Shown: piece by piece, positions 1,237-25,629 of the stretch | How positions within the stretch are numbered: the stretch's first letter is position 1 | Layout of the letters: every line of letters starts with the position of its first letter | DNA from: a virus | DNA: 32,572 bases | Virus record (IMG/VR): IMGVR_UViG_3300025806_000113 | Coordinates: 1-32,572 of that record | Strand: one strand, 5' to 3' | The notes under the pieces: model-generated | Database searches by the model: none | What the model saw: the letters and a program-made list of their open reading frames with translations, nothing else | Told to the model about the DNA's origin: nothing | Translations under genes and position numbers: made by a program

Positions 1237-1604
1237 TGAAGGCAGTTGCCAGCTTTGTGTTAATCCTAGTTATTGCACTTACTGTAGCGTCAATCCCTTG
1301 GTTTATTATTGCACAACCCGAAAAGACCTTAGTCTTTGATTGGAAACAACCGGTTAACAGAGTTGACGGTTCAATGCTGCTTTCTAGCGAGATTGCAGGC
1401 TACGAATTAATAGGTGGCGGCCTTTTTGCAGAGATATCAAGAGACTCTGAGACTTACACAGCGTCAAATTACACAATACCAGAGGAGGGAGCTTGTTTTT
1501 CGTTAGTGACGAAAGACACATTAGGTAATCGCAGCGAGCCAGTCACGGCTTGCATTGCTGCCATTCCTAGCGCACCTTCATCTTTTACAGTAAAAATTCA
1601 ATGA
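1236..1604 (+). CDS. Membrane-anchored fibronectin-III-like domain protein
   Basis: The 122-residue protein has a hydrophobic N-terminus (residues 4-26) that could be a signal peptide or anchor. It is followed by a beta-rich segment with the typical fibronectin type III pattern: a W-x-x-P start, an R-x-DGS turn, SEIAGYEL, and a SLVTKDTLGNRSEP strand pair near the end. Phages often carry such single domains on surface or tail-associated proteins. Its start overlaps the previous stop and its TGA overlaps the next ATG. The domain call rests on pattern recognition by eye. A role in contact with the cell envelope is inferred. Confidence 0.55.
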   Translation: MKAVASFVLILVIALTVASIPWFIIAQPEKTLVFDWKQPVNRVDGSMLLSSEIAGYELIGGGLFAEISRDSETYTASNYTIPEEGACFSLVTKDTLGNRSEPVTACIAAIPSAPSSFTVKIQ

Positions 1605-1984
1605 TAGAGAAATTTACTAAATTAATTGAAGATGCTGGCGGCTATGTAAATCCAGACCTTAAATTACTAGTTGGTGATGAGGCAAAGCATGGAATGGTAA
1701 GTTTGGAAGGTGTTGATAATGACGTTTTGTCAATTATAGCGCCTTATACATTAGCAGAACCAAAAGAGCGTTCTGGTCCTTGGATAGAGTTTCTTGAAAG
1801 TCTGGGTTATAACTGCAAAACAGATGATTTCTTTTTAGCTAATTCATTTAACTGCGGTTTCATGCCTTTACTTGGTGCTGCAAACCATAATGAAAATGGT
1901 GGAAAGCTAGTAGAGTCGAAAGATTCTTTTGAATTATACGGTATAGATTTTACCTACCATAAAGGCGCAATTTTTAATGAGTAA
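1601..1984 (+). CDS. Hypothetical protein next to tail genes
   Basis: The 127-residue protein has no signal peptide, membrane segment or motif that I recognise. It is mildly acidic and appears globular, with a Gly/Asn-rich patch near residues 88-102. The start overlaps the upstream stop as ATGA and the end overlaps the PhoD-like gene by eight bases. That context suggests a role linked to the host-recognition block, for example as a chaperone or partner of the neighbouring large protein, but nothing in the sequence proves it. Confidence 0.6.
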   Translation: MIEKFTKLIEDAGGYVNPDLKLLVGDEAKHGMVSLEGVDNDVLSIIAPYTLAEPKERSGPWIEFLESLGYNCKTDDFFLANSFNCGFMPLLGAANHNENGGKLVESKDSFELYGIDFTYHKGAIFNE

Positions 1985-4040
1985 AGAGTTTTTACAAGGT
2001 AAAGTTGGTACTGGGGTTCGCGCAGCATGGGTTGGGGAAAAGACAACAACCAGTTTTGCGGTTTACGTTCTTGTAAGGAATATGTCTAGCCAAGCCTACA
2101 ATGCTATTCACGACACATCGTTAACCAACGTAGGTACGCATTTAATAAACACAACAAACGCGACTATAGGATGTAAAAACATTACCACTGGTGTGGATGT
2201 TCCTGTTACTGGGGTTGATTTAACTAACGACCCGTTAGTCCATAGCGACCCAGACTCAAGGAATTGGTATGGGTTGAGGATTCGCAGGTTTAATTTCACT
2301 GGGTTAAAGGAAGGCACTAATTACACGGTTGAGCCTTACACAAACACAGTGGCTGCGAACGATCCGTCAATCGGAACGCTAAAAAGCTTTCAGTTTGAGG
2401 TTAGGACGTTAAGCAGTTCTGTGATAAGCGGAATGCACTACGGCTGTGATAAATTCAGATGGGTTTCTGCTGGTAGCAACAGTATGTATTTAGGGTTTGG
2501 CGACAAACCTTCTTGGTTTGATTGTGCTGATATCCAACATGATCTAAATGTTGACCTTTGTGTTAGCCAAGATGACATGATGTACTCAATAAGCTCTGTT
2601 AACGCCCCTGAGACTAACAAGTTAAATTGGATTGATCCTGTAAGCCTAACTTCTGATACAGTAGATAATGCTGAATTTTACATTACTGGTGGTAGAATTC
2701 GAGATGCCGTTTTAAATGTTGAAGAGCAAACAACTGCTTTTCAGTATAGCTTAGTAGGTGAGTTCTTTAGCGCAATGCTTGCTCCAGCACCACTGGCTAC
2801 AGCCATGAGAGCTAGCCTAGAGAGCACTGATGCGGGTGACCATTTAGCAACACTCAACAATTGCAATTTTAATATAGCTGATGATAAGTTTGGTTTAAAC
2901 ACAGCGGTTGGTTCAAATATAGATAACCAACCGCCAAACAGTGCATTTTTGGTAGATTATGGGTTAAATAATTTAAGCGGAACAAAACCCACTGATACTT
3001 CGACAGTAAATTACCTTCATGGGGGAAGCGGAAGTGCATCAGTAAGCGATCCCTTTAACCCATCCACTGCCTGCTACAACAACACCATTACTGACCTGCA
3101 ATCAATGGCAACAATGCAAGTCAATCATAAAATCTTAATGGAATACTTTTTTGGCAGAACGACTGGAGTTCAAGAAGACGGCAGTGCAAGCTACAAGAAT
3201 TTATGGACTGAGCATCCTTTAGGTGTTGCAGGCCTTAGTATTCCAGCGTATGCCGGTTCTGGGTTTTGGCGCAAGAGAGAACATCCGTTAGTTGATATGA
3301 TTTATTTAAACACTGGATACCATGCGGATTATTGCGGTAACGGTATTGGCGATGCAGTATTAAACAACCCGTGGACAAATTTAAGGGCTTACCCAGCGAC
3401 AAACAATGAAACGGTTGGGCCAGTTCAAAAAGCATGGCTTATCAATCAAATACAAAACAGCACAAAGGATTTTATTGTTATATTTTGTGGTGACTGCGTT
3501 CAACCAGTTAATCAAGCACCTGACGGAAGCCCTGGTGACGCTCAAGGCGGTATTTACGGACAAACTGATGGTTGGGGTCAAACAAGCAGAACTGAAATGA
3601 TTTCTACATTGGAATCGTTGCAGGCGGTTACAAACAAAGGAATACTTGTTTTAACCAGTGATCACCACACCACTTGCATGACTAACACTAACACAGATCA
3701 GACTGTTGGACATTCAAACATACTCCAATTGCTTTCTGTTACCGGTTGGGGTGGGGCTTTAAGGCGATTTACAAGTAATGATACAGGTTTTGTTGGTCAA
3801 TACACAGATTTTGAGCCTGCTAACTCATTAAATTCTCCCAGAGGTATTTCTCGCTTTATCGTTACCGAAAAAGAAATGGTTGCTTATAATGTTGAAGCAA
3901 TGATAGGTAATAACTTAAATTCAGATGTTGCAGTGTTCAAAAAAGGCGCGGATCGGTGGGTTTTTGAAGATAGGTCTACACACAAATATTTTAAATCATT
4001 GGCAATTGGCAATGGTCTTGCCAGTGTTAAAACAAATTAA
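1977..4040 (+). CDS. PhoD-phosphatase-like tail or host-interaction protein
   Basis: This 687-residue protein resembles the PhoD alkaline phosphatase/phosphodiesterase family. Residues 10-145 look like its N-terminal beta-sandwich. Residues 192-203 (VDLCVSQDDMMY) align with the family motif DFVLHLGDxIY, though the usual His and Gly are replaced. Residues 439-450 (VDMIYLNTGYHA) match the family's LDTRxYRD strand, 481-500 match the GxxQxxWLxxxLxxS helix, and 557-564 (LVLTSDHH) match the VxLSGDxH motif. Asp199, Asp200, Asp562, His563 and His564 are candidate metal ligands. I see no signal peptide. It sits between small membrane proteins and tail-type genes just before the terminase genes, so a virion enzyme or tailspike is more likely than a secreted phosphatase. 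Activity is uncertain because the first metal motif is altered. Confidence 0.6.
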   Translation: MSKEFLQGKVGTGVRAAWVGEKTTTSFAVYVLVRNMSSQAYNAIHDTSLTNVGTHLINTTNATIGCKNITTGVDVPVTGVDLTNDPLVHSDPDSRNWYGLRIRRFNFTGLKEGTNYTVEPYTNTVAANDPSIGTLKSFQFEVRTLSSSVISGMHYGCDKFRWVSAGSNSMYLGFGDKPSWFDCADIQHDLNVDLCVSQDDMMYSISSVNAPETNKLNWIDPVSLTSDTVDNAEFYITGGRIRDAVLNVEEQTTAFQYSLVGEFFSAMLAPAPLATAMRASLESTDAGDHLATLNNCNFNIADDKFGLNTAVGSNIDNQPPNSAFLVDYGLNNLSGTKPTDTSTVNYLHGGSGSASVSDPFNPSTACYNNTITDLQSMATMQVNHKILMEYFFGRTTGVQEDGSASYKNLWTEHPLGVAGLSIPAYAGSGFWRKREHPLVDMIYLNTGYHADYCGNGIGDAVLNNPWTNLRAYPATNNETVGPVQKAWLINQIQNSTKDFIVIFCGDCVQPVNQAPDGSPGDAQGGIYGQTDGWGQTSRTEMISTLESLQAVTNKGILVLTSDHHTTCMTNTNTDQTVGHSNILQLLSVTGWGGALRRFTSNDTGFVGQYTDFEPANSLNSPRGISRFIVTEKEMVAYNVEAMIGNNLNSDVAVFKKGADRWVFEDRSTHKYFKSLAIGNGLASVKTN

Positions 4041-4052
4041 AGGTAATTTACA

Positions 4053-5354
4053 ATGGGAATGTTTAGGTACAAGTTTAAAAGTGTTGGCGCAACAAATTTG
4101 TTTGGTCACGGCATTTCAGGCAATGGTATAGCTACCGTCAACCATTCAGCTTCACCGCATTTTGATTTTTATCAAGGCAATACTTTTTTATTCCGTGTTA
4201 CCGGAGTTATTTTTTTTATAGGAGCGAAAGGCCCGCACGTTTCTTTTAATGTGGACACATCAGTTGCGGGTTCTGTCATTTCGTATTCTGATACAACATG
4301 GCCTGCTAATTTGGACCGCCTCAGAACATATAAGGCTTCTGACGGTTCGACTTTTGGGGCTGATGTTACTTCAGCTACTTTTGATACGACTGGTCAACAA
4401 ACTTCTATTAATTATGAAAATGGCGGAAGTCAATCGAGATTTTTAAGTATCAAGGGAGACTCGACAACACAAACCACATCAACAAGTTTAGATAATGTAG
4501 ATATTGTTGCTGAATTTAGTGGCAACTTTACTCATGTAGAAATGGCTTACCCGTGGACTTTATGGGCACCTAACACAAACTACTCTGCGACCACAGGAAA
4601 TGGATTTACTACTGGAAATATGTTTATTGCTCAAGAAACCGGCCAACAACCAAAAATCTACCGTCCTCTTGCAAACACTACGGGTGCAGCCGATTTTGAT
4701 GCTTTTGTCGCGGCTAATTCATCGGAAATGACAGCAGCAATTAAAACCGACTTGTTGGGTGGGCAGGTTTTTGCAATAGAAACAGATTTTAACAACCCAG
4801 CGACAAATAGACCTGAGTTTAAAGCTACGCAAGGTACATCAGATATTATTCCTTTGTATGACGAGCCTTCAATATATATTAATACGGCTGCTGCAAGTGA
4901 CGGAACTGGTTATTCTAGACAAAGCCCAAGAAATGTTGTTCCAACATTAAATGATAACGATGAAGTGTTGGTTATGGCTGGCTCTACAATAGGTGAAACT
5001 ACTTTTACAAGTGACGCATTGCTTACAGCGCAGAATGGCGTAGTAGGCGGTGGTGGAAGCTCTACAGGAACTCCTAGGGCAAACATACCAATTCCATTAG
5101 GCAATGACCAGGCAACATCTGCTACATTTACTTTAGCTCCAAGCCAATCTAGACGCTACTACACTGCCCCTGAGCTTGCGTTTGGTGAGTTTGTCACAGC
5201 AGAGGTTCTTGGTGAAAGTGGTTATGAAAGTCTTGGTATTTTAATTAACCAAAACTCAGACTCTGGTGTCTTAACTAACAACTCAACACACACTCAAACC
5301 TACAAGATAACCAAATCTTTCACGCAATCTGAAACACGGGTGGAATACGATTAA
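4053..5354 (+). CDS. Tail fibre or appendage protein with repeated C-terminal domain
   Basis: The 433-residue protein is rich in Ser, Thr, Asn and Gly and low in Lys, like beta-structured phage fibres. Its N-terminal half has no recognised fold. A Gly-rich linker (VVGGGGSSTG, about residues 330-340) separates a C-terminal domain of about 80 residues containing SRRYYTAPELAFGEFV and SLGILINQ. That domain is clearly related to the whole of the next gene's product. It starts twelve bases after the PhoD-like gene and ends with a TAATG overlap. The most likely role is a host-recognition structure or its attachment to the virion. Confidence 0.55.
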   Translation: MGMFRYKFKSVGATNLFGHGISGNGIATVNHSASPHFDFYQGNTFLFRVTGVIFFIGAKGPHVSFNVDTSVAGSVISYSDTTWPANLDRLRTYKASDGSTFGADVTSATFDTTGQQTSINYENGGSQSRFLSIKGDSTTQTTSTSLDNVDIVAEFSGNFTHVEMAYPWTLWAPNTNYSATTGNGFTTGNMFIAQETGQQPKIYRPLANTTGAADFDAFVAANSSEMTAAIKTDLLGGQVFAIETDFNNPATNRPEFKATQGTSDIIPLYDEPSIYINTAAASDGTGYSRQSPRNVVPTLNDNDEVLVMAGSTIGETTFTSDALLTAQNGVVGGGGSSTGTPRANIPIPLGNDQATSATFTLAPSQSRRYYTAPELAFGEFVTAEVLGESGYESLGILINQNSDSGVLTNNSTHTQTYKITKSFTQSETRVEYD

Positions 5355-5638
5355 TGGCTAGAGTAACTTACATCTCAGCAAGTAAATCAGAAATAGTAGG
5401 ATCTGAGTTTACATTACAACCATCAGAAAGTAGGCGTTTCTATTCTCGACCGCAACTTTTAACTGGTGAGTTTGTTAAAGCGCAAGGCCGCTCAGAATCT
5501 GGTTTTAACTCTCTTGGAATTTTAATTAACCAAGGCGATGATTCTGGGTTGCTAACCAACGAAACAACTCAGCCACGGGCTTTTAAATTAACTAAAAGTG
5601 CCACAACTCAAGATATTGAAATCCAATACGATGATTAA
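5354..5638 (+). CDS. Stand-alone copy of the tail C-terminal domain
   Basis: The 94-residue protein matches the last 80 or so residues of the preceding gene product from end to end: FTL-PS-SRR-Y, GEFV-A, ESG--SLGILINQ, DSG-LTN and a closing beta-strand ending in QYDD. About half the positions are identical by eye. It therefore encodes the same domain without the fibre part. Either the domain assembles as a separate ring or cap, or the gene is a recent duplicate that supplies a second attachment protein. Its start overlaps the upstream stop as TAATG, and its end overlaps the small terminase gene. Confidence 0.6.
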   Translation: MARVTYISASKSEIVGSEFTLQPSESRRFYSRPQLLTGEFVKAQGRSESGFNSLGILINQGDDSGLLTNETTQPRAFKLTKSATTQDIEIQYDD

Positions 5639-6086
5639 GACAAAAAGAAAAGTAAAGTTAACAAGCCAGCAAGAAAAGTTTATTGATTTAATGGCTAAGG
5701 GTTATCACGAAGGCAAAGATCCTTTGAAGATGACTATTGCTGACGCTTTTGCTCTTGCTGGTTATGCTCCAGACCCTGGTAATGCTTACAGGATGTATAA
5801 AAAGTTTAAAGATGTAATAAAAGAAAAAAGAGATGACTTGATTGACGAAAACCAAGTTGCTTCTTTAGCTACAAAAATCATTGAAGACATAATGATTGAT
5901 AAAGAGAATAAACCTGAGATTAGATTGAAAGCAGCACAGGATATATTGCACAGAACAGGCTATGACAAACCAAGAGAGCTTAATGTAACACAAACCGTAT
6001 CAGATTTATCTGATGCAGAGCTAGATGAACAACTATCGGATCTGATTGAATCATCGCAAAATGTCAAAAAACTTAAGCACGGCTGA
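5631..6086 (+). CDS. terS: Terminase small subunit
   Basis: The 151-residue product would bind the packaging site and recruit the large terminase. The N-terminus carries LTSQQEKFIDLMAKG followed by an ADAFALAGYAP helix-turn-helix, the classic arrangement of phage small terminases. A helical region follows, with a motif of the type IRLKAAQDILHRTGYDKP that is common in this family. The ATG at 5631 is preferred over an upstream GTG at 5598 because the product then starts with a normal basic N-terminus and the overlap with the previous gene is only eight bases. It directly precedes the large terminase, as expected. Confidence 0.8.
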   Translation: MIKTKRKVKLTSQQEKFIDLMAKGYHEGKDPLKMTIADAFALAGYAPDPGNAYRMYKKFKDVIKEKRDDLIDENQVASLATKIIEDIMIDKENKPEIRLKAAQDILHRTGYDKPRELNVTQTVSDLSDAELDEQLSDLIESSQNVKKLKHG

Positions 6087-7527
6087 AAAGCAAAAGCTCC
6101 TAAAGTTAATTCAGGAGAAAGAGGAAAGACGAAAGTTTAACCAGATAAAGGAGTGGGTTCCTTATGGTTGGCAGGAGTCTTTGTCTAATGCAACACTTGA
6201 AAACAATCAGTGTCTTGCAATGGCGGGTAACCGAGTTGGTAAGACGTACACTGGTGCAAGAATTACTGCCTGCCATCTAACAGGGATATATCCTGATTGG
6301 TGGAAAGGCAAAAGATTCACTAAGCCTATAAATGCTTGGGCTGCTGGTGCTAGTACAGTTACAACTAGAGATATTTTACAGAAAGAATTACTTGGTGATC
6401 CAGTTAATCAAGACATGAGGGGATCTGGTGCTATACCTAAAGACTTTATCCATAGTGTTGTTAGAAAACCGCAAATACCGAACGCAGTAGAGAGTATTGT
6501 AGTAAAGTTTCATAACGCTTTTGGCGTACACATTGGTGAGTCTGTTGTGTCGTTTAAGTCTTATGAAATGGGTGAAGAGAAGTTCATGGGTTCTTCTCTT
6601 GATTGGATTTGGCTAGATGAGCAGCCAGCACAGAACATATACACTCAGTGTCTTACTCGGACACTGGACAAAAGGGGGTACGTCATGATGACGTTTACTC
6701 CTGAAAGTGGAATGACACCAGTTATAAGTCAGTTTATGAACGACAGAAAGCCTGGTCAGTTCTTAATACAGGCAGGGTGGGATGAAGCGCCTCACTTAGA
6801 TGAGGCCGCTAAAGAGCAGATATTAAGTCAGTATCTCCCAAACGAAAGGGATATGAGGACAAAAGGTCAGCCGGTATTTGGTAGAGGTATGGTTTTTCCA
6901 TACTCATTGGACAAACTTGTTGTTGATGATTTCCCAATACCTGATACTTGGCTCAAAATATGCGGTATTGACTTTGGGTTTGATCACCCAACAGCTATTG
7001 TTTGGGGAGCAATAAACCCAGACAATGGTTGTTTTTACATTTACGATGAATACAGAGAGTCAAGGCAGACTCCTACAATGCACTCAATAGCTTTAAAGGC
7101 TAGAGGGTCTGAGCCACCAGTTGCATGGCCTCACGATGGTAACAGATCGTTTGACGGTGGCGACAGCATGGCTACACAATATAGACAAGAAGGCGTTAAT
7201 TTGTTGCCTGAGCATTTTACAAATCCTCCTGATATATCGCAAAAGAAAGGCGATATAAAGATATCAGCAGGCATTACTGCAATGTCTCAAGCAATGGAAA
7301 AGGGTCTTTTTAAAGTTTTTAAAAGTTGTTATTTTTGGCAACAAGAATACGGCCAATACCACTTTGGCGACCAAGGCAAAATTGTTGATAAAGACGATGA
7401 TTTGATGTCTGCTTCTAGGTACTGTTACCAGAGCAGACGGTTTGCTGAGAAATCTAGAAGCACAGCAAACAAGAAAAAAAGACCTTGGGAAAAACAAAAT
7501 AAATCTACTTATGATTGGGTTATTTAA
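6061..7527 (+). CDS. terL: Terminase large subunit (packaging ATPase and nuclease)
   Basis: The 488-residue protein powers DNA packaging and cuts the genome. The N-terminal ATPase has a Walker A motif GNRVGKT (residues 56-62) and a Walker B motif IWLDE (183-187). The nuclease domain begins with GIDFGFDHPTAIVW (302-315), where Asp304 is the first metal-binding acid. A later WPHDG segment and DDDLMSASRY near the end supply further acidic residues. An ATG at 6061 is chosen; an upstream TTG would add five residues without support. The gene overlaps the small terminase by 26 bases and ends in TAATG with the portal gene. Confidence 0.9.
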   Translation: MSKNLSTAEKQKLLKLIQEKEERRKFNQIKEWVPYGWQESLSNATLENNQCLAMAGNRVGKTYTGARITACHLTGIYPDWWKGKRFTKPINAWAAGASTVTTRDILQKELLGDPVNQDMRGSGAIPKDFIHSVVRKPQIPNAVESIVVKFHNAFGVHIGESVVSFKSYEMGEEKFMGSSLDWIWLDEQPAQNIYTQCLTRTLDKRGYVMMTFTPESGMTPVISQFMNDRKPGQFLIQAGWDEAPHLDEAAKEQILSQYLPNERDMRTKGQPVFGRGMVFPYSLDKLVVDDFPIPDTWLKICGIDFGFDHPTAIVWGAINPDNGCFYIYDEYRESRQTPTMHSIALKARGSEPPVAWPHDGNRSFDGGDSMATQYRQEGVNLLPEHFTNPPDISQKKGDIKISAGITAMSQAMEKGLFKVFKSCYFWQQEYGQYHFGDQGKIVDKDDDLMSASRYCYQSRRFAEKSRSTANKKKRPWEKQNKSTYDWVI

Positions 7528-24400: not shown

Positions 24401-24799
24401 GTTATCGCTAGAAAAAGCGTTGGGATGACTAGGGATGAGTACAAACAAGATCTTTTAAAGACAACAATAGGCAAAGTGCTTGGTGCAAGAATTGGCTCTC
24501 AGTTTGGTCAGTCACCTCTAATCATGGCCAATGTTGGTGGCCGAGTCATGGAGCGACTGCTTACTAAAATACCTGGTGAGCAAATTGATGAGATAACAAA
24601 TGCGATGCTTTTAAATCCTCAAGAGTTTATCGATTACGTTGACAAGGTTGATAAGATAGACAATGTTAATGAAGCTGTCTCTATGCTGCATCAATGGATG
24701 TTGATTGCTGGGGTTCAAGGGGAAATGTACAGGACTGGTTCAAAAGAAGTTGAAGAGCGCAGACCTGAGAGCTTAGAAGAAAGAATGAGGGCGCAATAA
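21467..24799 (+). CDS. Giant internal virion (ejection) protein
   Basis: At 1110 residues this is the longest product in the window. It contains two apolar, Ala/Gly-rich patches (about residues 235-255 and 330-365) that could cross membranes, a large helical middle, and a C-terminal part with long amphipathic helices. There is no obvious peptidase or lysozyme motif; that activity may be supplied by the next gene. Position after three helical virion proteins and before a hydrolase matches the ejection block of P22- and T7-like phages. Confidence 0.55.
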   Translation: MTENEIIRSQEGVDPRFVDVNEYVRKSAGLDPQSEEKPLRSFNQLSSSEVEKMNSLISQSAGLSPNYNNSPEFNDIGSEVNKMPGVGIDYAETLSQGAIRGMLSVLDVGPMAWNALSWANNKMGGLQTTSIEYPSKIIGELTGLGDRNTNEINFGTLDAAAAQTIRDVASSKVVKDVKGSIIEALGGEAAPEGEKDVRPLRKGLFGDEIKAEDLSFSDNPLTAEQRQSIAPFEFGLEIASAATTGAGLMAFGGMRSLESARQFLPIAQKAGINPFFAEGRLIPRSLDDLKKITTTAPTVPTRTGASKAAVIAASKEGIKAEAKFAALSSLSATSVGLATNGDPLAMTIASLLVPTSFAAYKGVKDFRIRKQDELLKIVGREGQEFMALENILLHSSDRDAVIAKVREWAASGQKFPGTLGALTGDRGLLAWEKGRKAQGFNAEMRDMDRDALEFLSNSLSEIQKNGSEESLNKWLQMRVAAEESDAEMMLDNARQTTEDILESKGTKYESLEDANLAQEIQTEAVLANMEEKHEALWDQVPDEDLVNVSEVYRNFKGTMDSILDTETARSMGSKGYAEELNILKGLAKISDDASAPIGSSTPSLMSQLIKSNAVKLTRKEANEYGYENSGWYYIDPDTNSPMGTSHATKKDLVADIENSPFDYGIDIKSTSEAVGPVEDVFVSAKELIDLRSAINAKTRQLKSPGKAESNKFNAKFASEFQESLLNGINSAPNVSPAYTEAANYTRLLKQTTDKTAKNLALDDAATTDQRILKANERGAKPADEIISQAQFANEQGVEGAQDLLQATEEVGISSFASAAISPEGVVNTKAANAWIKKHASFLRRFPNARARMEKIADTGDAEDLAQESAKLTRSSREKSVAVNLIQSPNAIDTIDKLLAGKLKGGFQKGVDDLLEDISQTQDPAESLRGLQVLILDRLSHNMTFASKNYRVKVDPLLKQVFGDEAYNNIKQIYDDVDKVIARKSVGMTRDEYKQDLLKTTIGKVLGARIGSQFGQSPLIMANVGGRVMERLLTKIPGEQIDEITNAMLLNPQEFIDYVDKVDKIDNVNEAVSMLHQWMLIAGVQGEMYRTGSKEVEERRPESLEERMRAQ

Positions 24800-25629
24800 T
24801 GGAAGATATTTTAACTCAATTAGCCCAGCAAGGGGGCAAACCTCCAATTGAAGTGCCTGGTCAGCCAGCTACTTTAGACGGCTTGATTCAGCAACTAATT
24901 GGCTCAGGTGTAGGTTCAACACCGGAGTCACCAGGCATGGGCGCACAGCAAGCTGTAGAGCCTCCTGCGACCCTTATAGAGCAGGTTACAGCACCTCAAC
25001 AAGTGCAAACTCCAAACCCAGTAAATAAGAAAATAATTAGCGAAGTTGTTCCAAAGCCAACTAAGAAGGAAGAAAAGCAATTAATAAAAAACCCTATAGA
25101 GCTTATATATGGCAAAGAGTATTATGGTCTGGATGAGGCTAACCCCAAACACCAACCCATCATAGCAAGTTTCTTTGATAAAAGTATACCAAGCCTTATG
25201 ACATCAAAGGATGGCAAGAAGGACCCATCAAAAGTACAAAGTGTTGCGTGGTGCGCTGCATTTGTTGACCATGTTTTAAATGATTTAGGTCAGCCAAGTT
25301 TAAAATACGAGAAGGATAAATACGACATTGTTAGGGCTGCTAAGTATTTGCAATATGGCGAAAATGTTGACAATGACCCACAGCTTGGTGATCTTGCTGT
25401 AATACAAAACCCAAAAAACGGATTGTTTCATGTTGGCTTTTTTGCAGGAGAAGGGGAAAAAGGTAAAATTAAAATTCTTGGTGGAAATCAGAATAACCAA
25501 GTAAATGTTAGTTCTTATGACACCTCTAGAATTAAAGGTTTTAGAAGAATTGGTGATTTGGAAACGGTAAGCCCAGAGACTTTAATTAAAATATCTGAAG
25601 ACATACAGGGGCAGGGGGGAACTAGGTAA
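24799..25629 (+). CDS. Peptidoglycan hydrolase, CHAP/NlpC-like (TIGR02594-type)
   Basis: The 276-residue protein has a Pro/Gln-rich N-terminus (to about residue 95) then a cysteine-peptidase domain. The motifs match the TIGR02594 family: WCAAFVDHVL with catalytic Cys152, a LGDLAVI strand near 196-202, HVGFF with His211, and GGNQNNQV with Asn230, ending in GFRRI. Such domains cut the peptide part of peptidoglycan. Being encoded right after the ejection proteins, with a non-catalytic N-terminal half, it may be a virion-associated enzyme that opens the wall at entry, or the endolysin for release. No separate endolysin is visible. Confidence 0.75.
   Translation: MEDILTQLAQQGGKPPIEVPGQPATLDGLIQQLIGSGVGSTPESPGMGAQQAVEPPATLIEQVTAPQQVQTPNPVNKKIISEVVPKPTKKEEKQLIKNPIELIYGKEYYGLDEANPKHQPIIASFFDKSIPSLMTSKDGKKDPSKVQSVAWCAAFVDHVLNDLGQPSLKYEKDKYDIVRAAKYLQYGENVDNDPQLGDLAVIQNPKNGLFHVGFFAGEGEKGKIKILGGNQNNQVNVSSYDTSRIKGFRRIGDLETVSPETLIKISEDIQGQGGTR

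Follow-up and report, generated by a model that had tools for sequence, protein, structure and literature searches.

The window, by which we mean the whole 32,572-nucleotide stretch of DNA analysed here (a 32.6 kb record), comes from a marine podovirus. It encodes portal, capsid and adaptor proteins of the SU10 type and a large terminase that shares ~50% identity with its counterparts in Vibrio, Pseudomonas and Pelagibacter phages. Upstream of the terminase lies the gene of interest, which encodes a protein with a PhoD-type fold (P0001). The coordinates, frame and length given for it in the first-pass annotation were exact, and the absence of a signal peptide was confirmed from the sequence. 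The genes and features at this locus are:

1601..5630, + strand: variable cassette for host interaction; sister phage L006 has other genes between 1600 and 5631
1601..1984, + strand: 127-aa ORF that opens the swapped cassette and overlaps the start of P0001
1977..4040, + strand: P0001, PhoD-fold protein, ATG start, 687 aa, intact ORF
4053..5354, + strand: 433-aa ORF whose final ~95 aa form a domain common to the fibre-like slot proteins of relatives
5354..5638, + strand: 94-aa ORF, a stand-alone copy of the ~95-aa slot domain
6046..7527, + strand: large terminase, used as backbone anchor for finding sister phages

The start of P0001 shares 8 bases with the end of the preceding ORF, for which family searches gave no match. 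Elsewhere in the window, a CHAP-domain protein (24799-25629) matches the phage baseplate hub/tail lysozyme family and is thus perhaps a virion peptidoglycan enzyme.

A gene cassette exchanged between close relatives

Sister phages were retrieved by terminase similarity (80 records). One of them, L006, is 94.4% identical to the window at positions 1207-1600 and 98.0% identical over 5,287 bases from 5631 onward; between 1600 and 5631 it is wholly different (about 4.0 kb in the window against 4.1 kb in L006). The gene module of P0001, including the 127-aa ORF, has been cleanly replaced between these close relatives. In L006 the slot encodes two proteins, one of 827 aa and one of 509 aa, the latter with a GDSL/SGNH hydrolase domain (PF13472, 8e-12); both terminate in the ~95-aa slot domain. 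The slot of other sisters holds proteins of 530-1,090 aa, among them a right-handed beta-helix protein in L023. A clean replacement of 1601-5630 combined with fibre and esterase alleles is what a host-recognition cassette exchanged between phages looks like. The placement of P0001 in a host-interaction block, proposed in the first-pass annotation, is therefore borne out by its exact replacement in a 98%-identical sister and by the SGNH esterase or beta-helix protein found at this position. This genomic context is the strongest part of the evidence.

Some SGNH tail fibres are documented to remove acetyl groups from O-polysaccharide (PMC9569702), and a GDSL/SGNH protein holds in L006 the slot that P0001 holds in the window. 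Like the esterase tail fibres G7C gp63.1 and Possum gp66, P0001 would carry an enzyme fold on a host-recognition protein. Unlike them, it has an unrelated fold, and its chemistry would be directed at phosphodiesters instead of carboxyl esters.

Searches of phage and IMG/VR sequences found P0001 in one virus population only; the other record that bears it, IMGVR_UViG_3300007231_000130, is 100% identical across 14,460 bases and belongs to the same population. Among the 50 sister records searched, many of which are fragments, none had a PhoD match.

The ~95-aa slot domain, which possibly serves in assembly or anchoring, is found in the 433-aa and 94-aa neighbours of P0001. P0001 itself carries neither this domain nor a recognised virion anchor, and some slot proteins of sister phages likewise do without the domain. 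As a gene of its own it precedes the small terminase, and it also forms the C-terminus of many large slot proteins (window, L006, L016, L027, L030, L044 and L066). A further family of slot proteins, 770-930 aa in length, lies upstream of the terminase in L031, L056, L064, L067, L068 and L069. Several of its members start ALITDLITKKQRN..IDH..VACFCDTSS, and the member tested (from L031) gave no Pfam match.

PhoD relationship at both ends of the protein

The Pfam PhoD family PF09423 matches residues 471-574 of P0001 (E=2e-5), with a whole-protein score of 24.3 bits that lies below the curated cut-off of 27 bits. We built a family profile from phage PhoD proteins, with seeds from B. subtilis PhoD (PDB), annotated phages and plasmids; the collection was then widened with 80 IMG/VR contigs, and column conservation was judged over 63 PhoD relatives. 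The resulting HMM matches residues 477-580 at 27 bits; the value of its C-terminal match is about 1e-10 for one sequence. An N-terminal Ig-like PhoD domain is also present: its sub-HMM scored 17.9 bits, a value reached by 0 of 500 shuffles, and its pieces are colinear with the C-terminal core when aligned with the family profile by hhalign. The two matching regions are:

2013..2411, + strand: N-terminal Ig/FN3-like PhoD domain, residues 13-145 (AWVGEKTTTSFAV ... FTGLKEGTNYTVEPY), located by the family sub-HMM
3393..3716, + strand: C-terminal PhoD core, residues 473-580 (GPVQKAWL ... DGW ... VLTSDHH), the statistically firm part

Within the core, D562, H564 and W533 sit in columns that are invariant in 63/63 relatives, and Q484, D562 and H564 were placed identically in all 34 subset alignments. 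The first-pass annotation had reported four stretches aligning in order with PhoD motifs. Since the ends lie above chance and the middle is at chance level when taken alone, this ordered alignment is firm at both ends but weak in between.

P0001 shares with the PhoD family (PF09423; B. subtilis PhoD, PDB 2yeq) the Ig-like N-terminal domain followed by a metallophosphatase core, the DxH element (D562/H564), the conserved Trp, the GxxQ..WL elements and, probably, the Asp and Tyr of GDxxY. It differs from B. subtilis PhoD in having no Tat signal. It differs from the family as a whole in the long added stretches that separate GDxxY from the LDTR strand, in the loss of the LDTR and HLG motifs, and in a calcium Asp pair that is not placeable. 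Pairwise BLAST and phmmer searches with whole P0001 against PDB, phages, plasmids and IMG/VR returned its own virus population only, and when genomes were scanned with the profile of the C-terminal core, the only matches were cellular relatives (planctomycete, verrucomicrobial and Lysobacterales MAGs). A global alignment of P0001 with cellular PhoD was discarded because the N-terminal half was misplaced.

Structure prediction and overlay on PhoD had been proposed as a check. A model built with an alignment of PhoD relatives had a mean pLDDT of 57 and a pTM of 0.70. Its best PDB match was indeed 2yeq (Foldseek E 2.2e-12; Z 22.8 over 413 residues, rmsd 3.8), but this match is partly circular because the modelling alignment consisted of PhoD relatives. 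Purple acid phosphatases were the next-best structural matches. AlphaFold prediction from the single sequence gave a pLDDT of 32 and no usable model. The PhoD-type fold is supported by the Pfam and HMM matches of the C-terminal core, the shuffle test of the N-terminal domain and the invariant columns.

Metal-site residues

B. subtilis PhoD loses its activity when C180, D265, N271, N272 or D436 is replaced by alanine; D207A is nearly inactive, and the activity of D266A is drastically lowered (PMC4223295). The corresponding or candidate positions in P0001 are:

2445..2447, + strand: C157, candidate Fe ligand (B. subtilis C180), from the full-set alignment
2565..2585, + strand: SQDDMMY, residues 197-203, candidate GDxxY metal motif (D200, Y203), from full-set alignments
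2835..2861, + strand: GDHLATLNN, residues 287-295, candidate 1 for the DDHD.G.NN calcium motif, from alignments
2880..2903, + strand: DDKFGLNT, residues 302-309, candidate 2 for the calcium motif, from E-INS-i
2955..2972, + strand: DYGLNN, residues 327-332, candidate 3 for the calcium motif, best HMM score for the Asn-Asn half
3660..3668, + strand: D562-H563-H564, DxH metal motif (B. subtilis D436, H438), with the D562 and H564 columns conserved in 63/63 relatives

TSDHH is present at residues 560-564, and with their stable alignment (34/34 subsets) D562 and H564 are firmly predicted as C-terminal DxH metal ligands. D200 and Y203 are plausible metal ligands by sequence. They represent the most frequent placement (full-set alignments, 12-13 of 24 L-INS-i subsets and 7-9 of 10 E-INS-i subsets), which does not rise above shuffles. 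The GDxxY block score peaks at SQDDMMY, yet 44% of shuffles score equally, and the ungapped block scores for GDxxY and WDDH are at chance level. Asp and Tyr arose in the GDxxY columns in 126 of 800 shuffled middles; D, Y, N and N/D arose jointly in 38 of 800. SQDDMMY had been described as replacing HLGDxIY: it is present at residues 197-203 and retains the Asp and Tyr letters, but the Gly that is invariant in 63/63 relatives has become D199. The column of C157 contains Cys in 37/63 and Asp in 21/63 relatives, and its placement is unstable in random subsets.

For the DDxxxxNN calcium ligands there are three competing placements. The DYGLNN score for the Asn-Asn half was reached by 9 of 500 shuffles; as an ungapped placement it puts F324/L325 at the positions of the calcium Asp pair, so that no Asp pair is left. 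Completion of a full ligand set by DDKFGLNT (302-309) was dropped because the two other placements are equal or better. The LDxR strand motif is missing, with N445 and G447 in P0001 against Asp and Arg in 63/63 relatives (LDTR to LNTG), in a strand whose placement shifts among subset alignments. Altogether D199, P437, N445 and G447 occupy columns that are invariant or nearly so in relatives. With DxH kept but the calcium motif ambiguous and LDxR lost, the site may be either an active, rebuilt one or an inactive binding relic.

PhoD genes of other phages and the role of P0001

The neighbours of phage PhoD genes belong mainly to tape-measure, Dit and minor tail families. At least 23 of 50 phage PhoD records have a tape-measure match on the same strand no more than 8 kb upstream, a lower bound obtained from contig positions and from tape-measure matches to three PHROG families. 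Thermobifida phage P1312 encodes a 1,096-aa 'phosphodiesterase' (PhoD) after the tape measure and a tail protein, and the PhoD gene of Nostoc phage YongM adjoins a 'capsid fiber' gene. LC-MS/MS of concentrated YongM listed the PhoD protein seventh, with 35% coverage, among structural proteins; its authors assigned it to DNA metabolism, a few replication proteins with low scores appear in the list as well, and the purity of the preparation is incompletely documented (PMC8875764). These closest annotated homologues (YongM, P1312) look like virion proteins. The pattern is not general: large Streptomyces phages have their PhoD gene among tRNA genes. P0001 resembles the PhoD proteins of tailed phages (YongM, Anabaena phage Elbi, P1312 and the 80 IMG/VR contigs) in being encoded by a phage gene, often in a structural neighbourhood. 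Most of these proteins retain HLGDxHY and WDDHDxGpNN and many of their genes adjoin tape-measure genes, whereas P0001 is a far more diverged podovirus protein.

The PhoD relationship together with the swappable host-recognition slot suggests that P0001 probably touches or trims phosphate-bearing polymers of the host surface. Our best reading is a diverged protein of the tail and of host recognition, either a phosphodiesterase or the binding remnant of one, and not a phosphate-scavenging gene. We infer its virion location, substrate and activity, and our confidence differs between them: a virion/host-recognition role is likely, whereas retained phosphodiesterase activity has somewhat less than an even chance. 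The combined view, a diverged PhoD-fold host-recognition tail part that binds and perhaps cleaves phosphate-bearing surface polymers, its activity being left open, is one that we favour with reasonable confidence. In such a tail, the protein, with its Ig-like N-terminal domain and metallophosphatase core, would most likely bind lipid head groups or phosphodiester-linked glycans of the capsule or LPS; with an intact metal site it could cleave the surface polymers and let the virion close in. Glycerophosphodiesterase-type tail proteins of Gram-positive phages act against teichoic acids (survey PMC10194240). P0001 may work like these in cleaving a phosphodiester polymer at adsorption, but it belongs to a different family, and the related phages infect Gram-negatives. 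A teichoic-acid-like substrate would follow by analogy with other PhoD enzymes.

Loss of catalysis is the alternative that we take most seriously: P0001 could be a receptor-binding protein derived from PhoD that kept the fold and surface groove, which is a real possibility even if we would not quite bet on it. LNTG in place of the family-invariant LDTR, D199 in place of the invariant Gly before D200, and F324/L325 at the calcium Asp pair in the best-scoring Asn-Asn placement (DYGLNN 327-332) all point this way, and the B. subtilis enzyme is inactive with D265A and retains little activity with D266A (PMC4223295). On the other hand, D200, Y203, D562, H564 and W533 are retained, and the alternative placements DDKFGLNT or GDHLATLNN keep one or both Asp. 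We consider it very unlikely that P0001 is no PhoD relative at all and is a fibre protein with chance similarity. The Pfam score under the curated cut-off, the lack of pairwise BLAST/phmmer matches to phage or PDB proteins and the chance-level middle motifs would suit such a protein, but the N-domain and the C-core match separately and in the correct order, and every subset alignment agrees on Q484, D562 and H564.

Phage phoD genes are usually described as phosphate-acquisition genes; those of soil phages have been catalogued as auxiliary metabolic genes, and PhoD22 is active in vitro (PMC10987575). A phosphatase that frees phosphate for the infected cell is nevertheless an improbable role for P0001, which has no signal peptide and is encoded within a swapped fibre-type cassette a short way upstream of the terminase. 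Moreover, a fibre-like esterase is among the alleles of sister phages, and related phage PhoD genes lie near tape measures, with one product detected in a phage preparation. Slighter still is the chance of a lysis or late accessory enzyme that works from inside the cell, a reading prompted by the small membrane-type genes that precede P0001. By inspection only, these short ORFs (590-1604) look hydrophobic and lysis-like, but ORF 1236-1604 is conserved in sister L006 while the PhoD cassette is exchanged, and a CHAP-domain wall enzyme is encoded elsewhere (24799-25629).

Phage-tail enzymes acting on surface polymers are known as depolymerases and deacetylases. If P0001 is a host-recognition tail protein, a PhoD-type phosphodiesterase or binder would add another chemistry to the tail slot and a class of receptors open to testing, namely glycans or lipids of the surface that bear phosphate. 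Phage phoD genes scored as phosphate-scavenging would then have to be reinterpreted. The PhoD fold itself is known. Its proposed host-recognition role is under-recognised, and our search of the open-access literature found no paper on a role of PhoD in the phage tail or in receptor binding. PhoD-fold tail proteins may be widespread unrecognised host-interaction enzymes of phages, with many 'phoD' genes misfiled and P0001 a version with a rebuilt site that is swapped against an SGNH esterase; we regard this generalization as nearly an even call.

In five records (L115, L106, L131, L154 and L175), the PhoD domain is C-terminal in very large phage proteins (1,279-2,127 aa), which suggests a tip position. 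The published mass spectrometry table (PMC8875764) contains the products of each of the four genes in the PhoD cluster of YongM (L087, 5256-9086). A UV mutant cyanophage carries a one-base deletion at position 6196, in a predicted alkaline phosphatase D gene (PMC11356776); if the numbering is that of YongM (L087), the deletion falls beyond the catalytic core.
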